Shown piece by piece: positions 47,836 to 51,941 of a stretch of DNA of 64,000 bases; the first letter of the stretch is position 1; the number at the start of each line of letters is the position of its first letter. The DNA comes from Adhaeribacter soli (GTDB lineage Bacteria > Bacteroidota > Bacteroidia > Cytophagales > Hymenobacteraceae), in the NCBI RefSeq assembly GCF_008727925.1, contig NZ_VTWT01000007.1, positions 62,001 through 126,000 of the forward strand, given 5' to 3'. The translations under genes and the position numbers were made by a program. Below the pieces are notes generated by a model, which searched no databases, was not told the origin of the DNA, and was given only the letters and a program-made list of their open reading frames with translations.

Positions 47836-49620
47836 TTAGGATTGCGTTTCGCTTACAAGTTGCTTTTCGTAGAGGTGGCGGTACAAGCCTTCCTGCTCCA
47901 TTAAAGCCTGATGGGTGCCGTGCTGCACAATGGCGCCGTCTTCCAGTACCAGAATGTGATTGGCCAGCTTGGCCGAGGAAACCCGGTGCGAAATAATAAT
48001 AGAAGTCCGGTTTTGCATAATACGCTGCAGGTTATTCAGAATAGCATTTTCCGTTTTAGTATCCACCGCCGAAAGTGCATCGTCCAGGATCAGGATCTTT
48101 GGTTCGCGCACCAGCGCCCGCGCAATGGAAACGCGCTGCTTCTGTCCTCCGGAAAGCGTAATGCCGCGTTCGCCCAGCTTTGTTTCGAACTTCTCCGGAA
48201 AGCGCATGATATTTTCGTACACATCGGCATCTTTGGCGGCCTGCTCCATTTTGTGGTCAGGCAGCGCTTCTACCCCGAAACCAATATTGGCCCGGATGGA
48301 ATCGGAAAACAGGAAAACATCCTGGGGTACGTACCCGATCTGGCTTCTTAAATTATTCAGGTCGTACTCCTTAATATCTACGCCATCGATCAAGATGCGG
48401 CCGGAAGTGGTATCGTAAAGCCGGCAAACCAGGTTGGCAATGGTGCTTTTCCCCGAGCCGGTATTCCCGATTATGGCCAGCGTTTCGCCGTGCTTAATGC
48501 TGAAGTTCAGGTTCTTTAATGCTTCGATGCCGGTGTCCGGATAAACGAAACTTACGTTCTCAAACGTAATGTCGCCGGTAAGTTCTTTCCGGAAATTGCT
48601 TTGCGAAATAATATCGGTTTTGGTGTGCAGGAATTCGTTGATGCGGGCTTGCGAGGCGGCCGCGCGCTGCACCAGACTGGCCGTCCAGCCCAGCGCCGTT
48701 ACCGGCCAGGTAAGCATGTTTACGTAGATCAGGAACTCGGCGATATTTCCGGCCGTAATGCTGCCGTTTATCACTTCCTTGCCCCCAATCCAGACAGTAA
48801 TAATGGTGCTTAGCCCGATCAGGAATAAAATAAGCGGAAAGAAAAGGGCATTTACAAAGTTCAGCTCCAGCGATTTATCTTTATACGTATTGCTGGCCTT
48901 GTCGAAATTCTGAGCCGAATCGTCTTCCCGCACAAACGATTTCAATACCCTTATTCCCGAAAAAGCTTCCTGTACAAAGGTGGTAATGCCCGACAAGCTT
49001 TTCTGGATCTGGTCCGATTTGCGTTCGATGATGTTGTTCACGTAAAAAATACTGATTGCCAGCAAGGGGAGGGGCAATAGTGTATAAACTGTAAGCTTCA
49101 CGTTTACCGAAAGCATGTACGGAATTACGAGCAGGAACAGCACTACCAGGTTAATGCCGTACATAATGGCCGGCCCCACGTACATCCGCACCCGGCCTAC
49201 GTCTTCGGAAATGCGTGCCATGAGATCTCCCGTATTGTTGCGGCGGTAAAAACTCAGCGGCAAGGTCTGGTAATGGGCGTAAATGTCGTTTTTCAGGTCG
49301 TTTTCTACCAGGCGGCTCATTACAATTATGGTTTGCCGCATTAAGAAAAGGAACACGCCGCGCAACAAAGCCATGATCACAATTAAAGCGCCGTAAAAAA
49401 GGATGTTGCGGGCAAAAACGTCGTAAACGCTCTGTTGCAGGCTGCTGTCGGCGTAAAGTTGGTGCATCCGGATGCCGTCCTTCACCAGATCGAAGGCGTG
49501 CCGCACCACCTGGGCCGGAATAATGGCAAACAGGTTGGAAACCGCCACAAAAATAACGCCCCAGAAAAGGCGCCACTTGTAGCGGAACATGTATTTATTT
49601 AAGTATAGAAGCGATTTCAC
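47836..49620 (-). CDS. ABC exporter, fused permease and ATPase (MsbA-like)
   Basis: A 594-residue half-transporter. Six transmembrane helices occupy residues ~10-320; the ATPase shows Walker A IIGNTGSGKSTI, Q-loop GYVPQDVFLFSD, signature ITLSGGQKQRVSIARAL, Walker B ILILDDALS and an H-loop IIISHRVS. GTG 49618-49620 was chosen (VKSLLYLNKYMFRYKWRLFWG) because this matches the usual start of Bacteroidota MsbA-like proteins; the longer frame runs into a REP palindrome. It has a good promoter (49644-49674) and is about 31% similar in layout to the 39061 exporter. Confidence 0.9.
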   Translation of the reverse strand: MKSLLYLNKYMFRYKWRLFWGVIFVAVSNLFAIIPAQVVRHAFDLVKDGIRMHQLYADSSLQQSVYDVFARNILFYGALIVIMALLRGVFLFLMRQTIIVMSRLVENDLKNDIYAHYQTLPLSFYRRNNTGDLMARISEDVGRVRMYVGPAIMYGINLVVLFLLVIPYMLSVNVKLTVYTLLPLPLLAISIFYVNNIIERKSDQIQKSLSGITTFVQEAFSGIRVLKSFVREDDSAQNFDKASNTYKDKSLELNFVNALFFPLILFLIGLSTIITVWIGGKEVINGSITAGNIAEFLIYVNMLTWPVTALGWTASLVQRAAASQARINEFLHTKTDIISQSNFRKELTGDITFENVSFVYPDTGIEALKNLNFSIKHGETLAIIGNTGSGKSTIANLVCRLYDTTSGRILIDGVDIKEYDLNNLRSQIGYVPQDVFLFSDSIRANIGFGVEALPDHKMEQAAKDADVYENIMRFPEKFETKLGERGITLSGGQKQRVSIARALVREPKILILDDALSAVDTKTENAILNNLQRIMQNRTSIIISHRVSSAKLANHILVLEDGAIVQHGTHQALMEQEGLYRHLYEKQLVSETQS

Positions 49621-49643
49621 GGAAACACAAAAGAAGGTTGCAG

Positions 49644-49674
49644 CAAAGGTACCTTTAGCAAAAGCAATTGCCAA
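49644..49674 (-). promoter_or_regulatory. Promoter of the ABC exporter gene
   Basis: On the minus strand: -33 TTG (49674-49672), a 20-base spacer, and -7 TACCTTTG (49651-49644), a good match to the Bacteroidota TTG-N19-21-TAnnTTTG pattern, 24 bases before the GTG start. Confidence 0.7.
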
Positions 49675-49685
49675 ATTATATGTAC

Positions 49686-49901
49686 GGACAGGGCTTGACC
49701 TGTCCCCACGCATTCCTGATCAAATATTTCTGAATGTGGATTTGAATTACAAATCTGTTCGCTAATGCGTGATCGGATAATTTGCGGACATGTTCAGGAA
49801 TGTGTGATTGGAAATGCGTGACTAGATATGTGTGATCAGAAATGTTTGATCGGAAATGTTTGATCGGGAATGCGTGCGGACAGGTCGCGACCTGTCCCTA
49901 C
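49686..49901. repeat. REP palindromes and degenerate tandem repeats around RAYT 3' end
   Basis: GGACAGG..CCTGTCC palindromes lie at 49686-49705 and 49878-49897, the second followed by CTAC (GTAG foot on the other strand). A third is inside the RAYT gene at 50104-50127. Between the first two, short units such as TGTGATCAGAAATG, TTTGATCGGAAATG and TTTGATCGGGAATGCGTG repeat with changes (about 49735-49875). The same GATCAGGAATGCGTG word occurs inside the RAYT gene. Confidence 0.78.
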
Positions 49902-50500
49902 GGTTTGAAAAATTTATCTTGGTGCCATTTGGCCGGGTTGTTTTGGATGTAATGATAAATGTTCTGATAACCCCGCTCATCACGAATGATATGATCGTGA
50001 AAAGAACGTTGCCATGCAAATTCCGAAAGTCCGGCCTGCCTGATCTTTTTAGAAGTAGTAGTTTTATAAGCGCCAACCAATTCCGAAACCGATTTTATTT
50101 TCCGTAGGGACAGGTCGCGACCTGTCCGCACATTATCTGATCCTTTCCGCACGCATTCCTGATCAAATTCCCCTGTCTCACTTTCTTGATTAAACTTTCC
50201 TATACGCACGCATTCCTGCCCAAAATCTTTCTGAATAAAAGGGTTGATCTCCAAAATGGCATGCACATGATTCGGCATTACAACGTAAGTGTGCAGCACC
50301 AGGTACGGGTACTGACTTTTCAACCAAAGAAATTGTTCATTCGCAATTTTTCCAAAGGTATTCAGGTGTATTGTCTCGTCGGCAACCTTGCCAAAGTAAT
50401 GCTCTCCGTCCTGCACACAAACAGTAATAAAATACAAAGCAGCCGTGCTGTAATCGAAATTCGGTAAACGGTTTAATTTGCGTTCCGGCAGCATGGGCAA
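49898..50500 (-). CDS. REP-associated tyrosine transposase (RAYT)
   Basis: A 200-residue Y1 HUH protein of the RAYT group. NFDYSTAALYFITVCVQDGEHYFG opens the domain; the HUH motif is VVMPNHVHAILEI (His-Val-His), and the catalytic Tyr is in HIIRDERGYQNIYHYIQNNPAKW. RAYTs move or maintain REP palindromes. Here residues ~105-140 (QECVRIGKF..., EFDQECVRKGSDNVRTGRDLSLR) are an insertion encoded by the repeat itself, with the REP palindrome read as RTGRDLS. The stop TAG comes from the GTAG foot of the next REP. It may still be active since the core motifs are intact. Confidence 0.88.
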   Translation of the reverse strand: MPMLPERKLNRLPNFDYSTAALYFITVCVQDGEHYFGKVADETIHLNTFGKIANEQFLWLKSQYPYLVLHTYVVMPNHVHAILEINPFIQKDFGQECVRIGKFNQESETGEFDQECVRKGSDNVRTGRDLSLRKIKSVSELVGAYKTTTSKKIRQAGLSEFAWQRSFHDHIIRDERGYQNIYHYIQNNPAKWHQDKFFKP

Positions 50501-50740
50501 ATCATAAGGTGCAACGTTTATACGGAATCAATCCGAACAAGTAACACATGAATGTCCGGTACTTTTTTGTTCATCCTCCGGAAAACCAAACCGATAATAA
50601 TTCCCTTCCCTCATACAACCAAAACCGCCTGCCGCTTGTCTTATCCCAAACAACGCTATACTTCACCCGCAAAAAAGAGCCTTTCGCACGGTAAATAGCA
50701 AAGAAGCAGGACAGTGTAGGATACTTTTAAAAAACCTGCA

Positions 50741-50771
50741 TTGGCTTTCTGCAAAAATTGAATTACTTTTG
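50741..50771 (+). promoter_or_regulatory. Promoter of leucine dehydrogenase
   Basis: -33 TTG at 50741-50743, a 20-base spacer and -7 TACTTTTG at 50764-50771, a good Bacteroidota match, ~70 bases before the ATG. The remaining gap 50501-50740 has nothing I can name. Confidence 0.65.
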
Positions 50772-50840
50772 CGTTTGATTTGTACTAGGGCTGCCAAGCG
50801 GCTTGTTACAAAATCAGAATAACCTTTTAATTAGCATAAA

Positions 50841-51941
50841 ATGGTCGAAATTAAAGAAGTACCAGTTAAAAAGGAATCCTCCGTTTTCGGACAGGTATCC
50901 GAGTTTCAGCACGAACAAGTTGTTTTCTGTCACGATCATGAGACCGGTCTGAAAGCCATTATCGGTATTCATAATACAGTTTTAGGTCCGGCGCTTGGCG
51001 GTACCCGTATGTGGTCTTACGCTACCGAAGCGGAGGCGCTCAACGACGTACTTCGTCTGTCCCGCGGCATGACTTATAAAGCAGCTATCTCCGGCCTGAA
51101 CCTGGGTGGTGGTAAAGCAGTAATTATTGCCGATTCCAAGAAAGACAAGTCGGAAGCGCTGTGGCGTAAATTCGGCCGTTTTGTAGAAAACCTGAACGGT
51201 AAATACATCACTGCCGAAGACGTTGGAACTACCAGCAAAGACATGGAGTACATTAAAATGGAAACTAACTTTGTAACGGGCTTACCAGAGTCGATGGGCG
51301 GTTCCGGCGATCCTTCTCCGGTTACAGCTTACGGTACTTACGTAGGTATGAAAGCCGCTGCCAAGCGTGCCTTCGGTTCCGATAGCCTTGCCGGCAGAAA
51401 AATTTCGGTTCAGGGTACCGGCCACGTAGGTGGTTACCTGATCGAGCACCTGGTAAAAGAAGGTGCCCAGTTATTCATTACCGACATCGACCAGGAGCGC
51501 CTGAAAGATATCAATGCTAAAACCGGCGCTACCATTGTTGGCCTGGATGAGATCTATGACCTGGATGTAGATATCTATTCGCCATGCGCTTTAGGTGCAA
51601 CCATTAACGACAATACCCTGAGCCGTCTTAAGTGCCAGGTAATTGCCGGTTGCGCAAACAATCAGCTGAAAGACGAAAACGTACACGGCCCTGCTTTAAT
51701 GGAAAGAGGCATCGTTTACGCGCCTGACTTCCTGATCAACGCCGGTGGTCTTATCAACGTGTATTCCGAACTGAACGGTTACAACCGCACCGCGGCTTAC
51801 GACCAGACCGAAAAGATCTACGATTATACCCTCGAAATTTTCAACATGGCTGAGCAGGAAGGTATGTACACCCAGCTTGCCGCTATGAAAATGGCCGAGA
51901 AACGTATTGCCAGCATTGGTAAAGTAAAATCTACTTACTAA
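50841..51941 (+). CDS. Leucine/Glu-Phe-Val dehydrogenase family enzyme
   Basis: A 366-residue NAD-dependent amino acid dehydrogenase, most like leucine dehydrogenase. The catalytic Lys is in GLNLGGGKAVIIAD; GGTRMWSYATEAEALNDVLRLSRGMTYKAA precedes it. The Rossmann motif is VQGTGHVGGYLIEHL. It interconverts branched-chain amino acids with their 2-keto acids, with release or uptake of ammonia, and so feeds branched-chain fatty acid synthesis. It is a single gene with a terminator at 51967. Confidence 0.92.
   Translation: MVEIKEVPVKKESSVFGQVSEFQHEQVVFCHDHETGLKAIIGIHNTVLGPALGGTRMWSYATEAEALNDVLRLSRGMTYKAAISGLNLGGGKAVIIADSKKDKSEALWRKFGRFVENLNGKYITAEDVGTTSKDMEYIKMETNFVTGLPESMGGSGDPSPVTAYGTYVGMKAAAKRAFGSDSLAGRKISVQGTGHVGGYLIEHLVKEGAQLFITDIDQERLKDINAKTGATIVGLDEIYDLDVDIYSPCALGATINDNTLSRLKCQVIAGCANNQLKDENVHGPALMERGIVYAPDFLINAGGLINVYSELNGYNRTAAYDQTEKIYDYTLEIFNMAEQEGMYTQLAAMKMAEKRIASIGKVKSTY

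Follow-up and report, generated by a model that had tools for sequence, protein, structure and literature searches.

The window, that is, the whole stretch of 64,000 nucleotides analysed here, carries on its minus strand an open reading frame of the RAYT or TnpA-REP type (Y1 HUH transposase; 49898-50500), which encodes 200 residues from a TTG start and has an in-frame ATG as its third codon. The HUH motif P-N-H-V-H (residues 76-80; 50261-50275, minus strand) includes P76, N77, H78 and H80, all invariant in alignments A1 and A2, and the Tyr motif YIQNNP (residues 184-189; 49934-49951, minus strand) includes Y184 and N188, invariant in A2; the coordinates of both motifs were computed from the reading frame. 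From what is generally known of the family, Y184 is presumably the nucleophile. The WQ motif is present as AWQRSF. The protein scores 26.4 bits against the Pfam model Y1_Tnp, above the gathering score of 23, and 57.8 bits (E 1.1e-15; best stretch residues 136-191) against the NCBIfam equivalog model NF047646 REP_Tyr_transpos; since the latter score is under the curated cut-off of 80, the protein is not filed under NF047646. The best fold matches of the AlphaFold model (mean pLDDT 82.3) are ISDra2 TnpA, 4er8 and IS608 TnpA (IS200/IS605 transposases), with query-normalised TM-scores of 0.44-0.49, and 4er8 is a REP-associated tyrosine transposase bound to a REP hairpin. An Rfam scan of 49000-51200 gave no match, and the promoter and terminator scans found one candidate each, not above the shuffle level.

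Within the gene, at 50104-50127 (plus strand), lies a REP unit composed of GTAG (50104-50107) and the 20-nt palindrome GGACAGGTCGCGACCTGTCC (50108-50127). The gene reads through this unit on the minus strand as CGG ACA GGT CGC GAC CTG TCC CTA CGG, that is, R-TGRDLS-L-R, in which TGRDLS corresponds to residues 126-131. A second REP is located downstream (49878-49901, minus strand; palindrome 49878-49897, CTAC 49898-49901), and the TAG stop of the reading frame (bases 49900-49898) falls within its GTAG foot. The two REPs are oppositely oriented, their feet face each other over 198 nt at the gene end, and together they form a perfect 30-nt inverted repeat (49874-49903/50102-50131). The downstream REP also forms the gene-proximal end of a complete REPIN (49682-49901) that follows the gene on its 3' side and whose 52-nt inverted arms (49682-49733/49850-49901) are 85% complementary; 5' of the gene, no REP core with up to two mismatches was found in the 5.6-kb locus (L094). 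In RNA folding, the in-gene hairpin has a z score of -2.0, which is only moderately better than shuffles, and the downstream hairpin one of -1.05. The mechanically called start of an ABC transporter reading frame (47836-49713) reaches into the REPIN; its true start is probably downstream.

The in-gene REP lies in an expanded loop of 52 aa (residues 85-136; 50093-50248, minus strand), compared with 13 aa in three insert-free orthologues. In the model, strand 78-85 and a short helix (87-94) come before this loop, and it is followed by helix 138-155, which leads to the tyrosine domain. AlphaFold block means of 48-53 for residues 91-130 suggest that this part of the loop is probably disordered, as are probably the first ten residues of the protein. 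The gene also contains a REP tail repeat with the word GCACGCATTCCTGATC (50142-50168, plus strand) that is 93% identical to the 3'-flank stretch 49699-49725, and a second, diverged tail repeat (50199-50225, plus strand) that is 78% identical to the same stretch. The expanded loop of the window RAYT is REPIN-derived, at least in part. These results agree with the preliminary description of the locus, in which an RAYT-type enzyme with its HUH and Tyr motifs kept, a REP unit in frame at 50104-50127, a second unit at 49878-49901 giving the stop through its GTAG foot, and a tail word of the 3' flank recurring in the gene insertion had been proposed; the motifs, the Y1_Tnp score and the fold matches bear out the first of these, and the positions of both REP units proved exact on re-reading. 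A functional fusion of enzyme and target would be conjecture.

The palindrome belongs to a REP family of this genome. With up to two mismatches allowed, 24 sites were found in 4.97 Mb (23 exact and one with a single mismatch), versus none for a reversed control pattern. The family has a GTAG foot, a palindrome, several genomic copies and inverted pairs, the features by which GTAG REPs are recognised, and the identification of the in-frame element as a GTAG REP of its own genome is thereby confirmed. At L009, at position about 1485, a REP foot gives the TAG that closes a 419-codon open frame, the only such case at the remaining 22 REP sites in this genome. Near position 1505 of L003, a REP of the first family is adjoined by another palindrome-like repeat, GGGCGACC...GGTCGCCC. 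In addition, two RAYT paralogues in the same genome, L021 (C11:208277-208810) and L022 (C13:183616-184152), hold a different palindrome, GAGACGCGATNNATCGCGTCTC, inside the gene, and this palindrome occurs at 8 genome sites in all with up to two mismatches, including those two. A third paralogue, L023, seems to carry yet another REP pair; the search pattern used for it, probably badly written, gave 0 matches.

To place the window gene among its relatives, 204 genomes of the same family were searched, and 38 of them had a match; 28 of these were taken as the orthologue set, and the remaining 10, at 34-40% identity, were excluded as other RAYT lineages. In the loop of the 28 orthologues, the exact 14-nt REP core is present in 16, a changed copy or remnant in 7, and nothing recognisable in 5, so that REP or REP-derived DNA is found at the same loop in 23/28. 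The in-loop REP is not needed, because those five orthologues exist without a recognisable one; in three of them the loop is only 13 aa long, and loop length ranges from 13 to 94 aa among the 26 orthologues with an in-frame loop. The preliminary description had considered that the insertion might be unique to the window copy, which is not the case, and that relatives might carry the same in-frame REP, which they do; its caution that most homologues might share the loop while lacking REP similarity is not borne out among the orthologues, with a 13-aa loop in 3/28 and REP-derived DNA in 23/28. REP orientation in the loop varies between orthologue groups. The loops of L087 and L090 each hold two REPs in inverted order, the second of which is read in a different frame, as DRSRPV; the same frame is used by L067 and, in a changed form, by L091. 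The GTAG foot provides the stop in four of the 28 (L067, L087, L091 and the window). Three genes are broken, one by a stop (L071) and two by a frameshift (L085 and L092), and the loop of each contains a REP. When the loop was excluded from tree building, the five loop states required 8 changes on the resulting tree, compared with a mean of 13.7 after shuffling; 7 of 25 inner branches of this tree have firm support.

The 14-nt core is present in 56/204 family genomes, among them all 28 with an orthologue, and each of these 28 contains at least three core copies, counts that include copies at the RAYT gene itself. No orthologue of this set was found at E up to 1e-22 in the 148 core-less family genomes, nor in the other 28 core-bearing ones. 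Copy number reaches 81-94 in G204, G206 and G017. Among five farther relatives, all core hits lie at the RAYT locus in four (L098-L101), save two 2-mismatch sites elsewhere in Bizionia, and in L097 three core hits lie on three contigs. Locus L099, from the 1.0-Mb genome of a Candidatus Magasanikbacteria member, has two core hits only, one upstream of and one inside an RAYT 44% identical to that of the window; gene and REPs were possibly transferred between phyla. Bizionia arctica (L101) has three copies of a variant that differs in both arms, and one copy lies within the gene, at a second site. Such a second in-gene site, nearer the N-terminus, is seen in both Flavobacterium cheongpyeongense (L098) and L101; by eye, it falls in the turn between the strands matching window residues 37-40 and 43-46 (in L101, residues 40-43). 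From these distributions, we infer that the RAYT gene and its REPs travel together.

A wider sample was drawn from named genomes (Bacteroidota, Chloroflexi, Cyanobacteria, candidate phyla and others) and comprised the best 80 of 450 relatives, of which 73 were parsed and 7 dropped; L095 corresponds to the same locus as L067, and L096 to the same locus as L081. Within these best 80 of 450, a stem of at least 8 bp occurs in 46/73 loops versus 9/73 N-parts and 9/73 C-parts, though the N- and C-parts are mostly longer. In a flank of up to about 12 kb per locus, the bases recurring outside the gene amount to 600/7842 for the loop, 266/18562 for the N-part and 200/16029 for the C-part, and the loci with such bases number 20/73, 13/73 and 7/73, respectively.

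The letters of the in-gene REP are nearly uniform. Of the 18 carriers in which the TGRDLS frame is read, 15 have one and the same REP 18-mer, and 16 have the six residues themselves. In the 18 carriers, the same residue is written with the same codon in 833/867 cases within the REP versus 6968/14311 elsewhere, or 1882/4936 elsewhere when only T, G, R, D, L and S are counted. Outside the loop, none of the 45 columns with an invariant residue uses a single codon (17 of the 18 carriers, the truncated L071 being excluded). The clade with the REP in forward orientation gives the same picture: in 11 of its 13 rows, with the half-deleted L086 and the frameshifted L092 excluded, same-codon counts are 290/310 in the REP versus 3104/5825 elsewhere. 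The mean pairwise difference is 0.000 in the foot and 0.045 in the palindrome, against 0.334 in the loop before the REP and 0.483 after it, and the least diverged 20-nt windows of the N and C parts reach 0.117 and 0.133. Excluding L074 as well changes these values little (palindrome 0.050; loop 0.291 and 0.437). Only the foot and the palindrome are held in this clade, and the surrounding loop has drifted. Since the flanking loop is shared yet diverging, the inserted DNA looks inherited in most of the clade (the tail of L074 differs).

The arms of the hairpin offer a second line of evidence. In the in-gene copy of G190, a C-G pair has become T-A and one loop base has also changed; with one mismatch allowed, this compensated arm pair is complete at the in-gene site only, two other genome sites having one side or a broken arm, and it represents a single event. 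Across 11 distinct in-gene variants, four pairs are changed on both sides, a value reached in 0/500 shuffles, and 88.6% of cells are paired, in a count that is uncorrected for relatedness and includes the L101 variant, also present in the flanks of that locus. Broken pairs occur as well, with two in L069, the base pair in L072 and L091, and three over two copies in L098, in addition to those in the broken genes L085 and L092. The freeze and the compensated pair suggest a constraint on the hairpin itself.

Taking these observations together, we consider it very probable that the window gene is an RAYT of the subclass 2.4 type that has received REPIN-derived DNA in frame in a disordered loop, with the hairpin kept at the DNA level. 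REP mobilisation near the RAYT gene would have led to insertions into the loop, and these would have been tolerated because the loop (residues 91-130) is probably disordered. Whatever then keeps the hairpin would act at the level of DNA or RNA, and hardly through the peptide; since the peptide leaves retention of the hairpin unexplained, the candidates are selection on the DNA or RNA hairpin as an in-gene site, or a correction by other REP copies that is confined to some 24 nt. The TAG stop in the GTAG foot may be a by-product of REPs landing directly behind genes.

How the hairpin is kept admits different readings. One, to which we give a little less than an even chance, is that REPs simply land in a permissive loop and have no role in the gene, their uniform letters reflecting new insertion or correction from the REP population. 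Short-tract correction from other copies could yield the same freeze, copy number is high in G204, G206 and G017 (81-94), and the in-gene variant of Bizionia (L101) equals its two flanking copies. REPs have also been reported in unrelated genes (PMC3733652). The foot type found inside the gene recurs, at the same locus, among the REPs that flank it, as GTAC in G006, G173 and G031 and as GTAG in the other loci with the in-gene foot read; this comparison is uncorrected for relatedness, and a GTAC foot is present in the flanks of L076 and of the window as well. On the other hand, the sequence flanking the palindrome on either side can still be recognised as shared in most rows of the forward clade, and its divergence resembles that of a single inherited insert, so reinsertion of a whole REPIN is unlikely there, and the compensated pair of G190, a single event, is found at no other genome site with both arms otherwise intact.

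A more tentative proposal, about which we have somewhat greater doubts, is that selection maintains the in-gene REP as a cis-acting hairpin through which the RAYT may recognise its own gene or mRNA, the letters being constrained as a hairpin and not as a peptide. Such a hairpin would serve either for self-limitation or as a protected master copy of the REP, whose loss would necessarily damage the reading frame of the enzyme. Selection at the protein level, with TGRDLS as a functional and conserved peptide, is very improbable: the six residues are indeed retained in 16/18 carriers of that frame, but the synonymous sites are frozen as well, which peptide selection leaves unexplained, and the segment is predicted to be disordered. 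The peptide is also unlikely to matter because the DRSRPV frame is used instead in L067 and in the second REPs of L087 and L090, with a changed form in L091, and because 5/28 orthologues lack the peptide. A chance palindrome in an ordinary coding segment can be dismissed, given 24 genome copies versus none for the control and a core in 56/204 family genomes, including all 28 with an orthologue.

A target-like site frozen in the enzyme's own reading frame provides a direct handle on the question of what makes RAYT genes and their REPs stay associated over such long times. Synonymous recoding of the six codons would remove the hairpin alone and leave the peptide unchanged, so that any role of the hairpin becomes measurable. 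The score of 57.8 bits against a cut-off of 80 also calls for caution in annotation, as such loops may depress family-model scores.

Among known systems, Rickettsia palindromic elements resemble the window REP in being palindromic repeats that are read through in frame, and differ from it in not lying in the gene of an enzyme thought to mobilise the repeat. Their occurrence in genes is noted by Di Nocera et al. 2013 (PMC3733652), who describe REPs sharing with the window the GTAG foot, the palindrome, a location inside ORFs and a foot-supplied stop; in their account, GTAG REP termini often give the TAG stop of flanking ORFs, so this property of the window gene is already published. Unlike the situation in the window, RAYT genes are not named among the genes with internal REPs in the available text of that paper. 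That RAYTs mobilise REPs is stated as a hypothesis (PMC3733652, PMC8266576). GTAG REPs usually exceed 100 copies (Nunvar et al. 2010, PMC2817692), whereas the window genome has only 24. The same authors report four rayt 3' ends caught within BIMEs as the inter-REP segment, and the window gene likewise ends between two inverted REPs, except that one of the two is itself coding.

The closest counterpart is subclass 2.4 of TnpA-REP, in which Quentin et al. 2018 (PMC6006769) found REPs lying in frame after the HuH and before the Tyr motif and to which all 100 RAYT group 4 sequences of Bertels et al. were assigned. The subclass motifs NH[IFV]H, WQ and YIxNNP appear in the window as NHVH, AWQRSF and YIQNNP; the window orthologues share with the subclass an insert, variable in length, that separates the HUH strand from the next helix; and REPs lie inside the gene without a frame break in a Bacteroidetes host, as in the window (PMC6006769). 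REPs flanking the gene are a further feature of the subclass; in the window, a REPIN lies directly 3', and the 5' side lacks a core with up to two mismatches over the 5.6-kb locus. Judged by its motifs, its insert and its in-gene REP, the window RAYT is very probably of the subclass 2.4 type, and an in-frame REP in an RAYT is an already published property of that subclass (PMC6006769). The main text of PMC6006769, as available, does not contain the term "stop codon" and reports no stop from a REP foot, and it makes no mention of a DNA-level freeze or compensated pairs in in-gene REPs; no report of a codon-level freeze or of in-gene compensated pairs was found in searches of one open-access library. 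Set against these systems, the DNA-level freeze of the in-gene hairpin is apparently a new observation, and a testable one.
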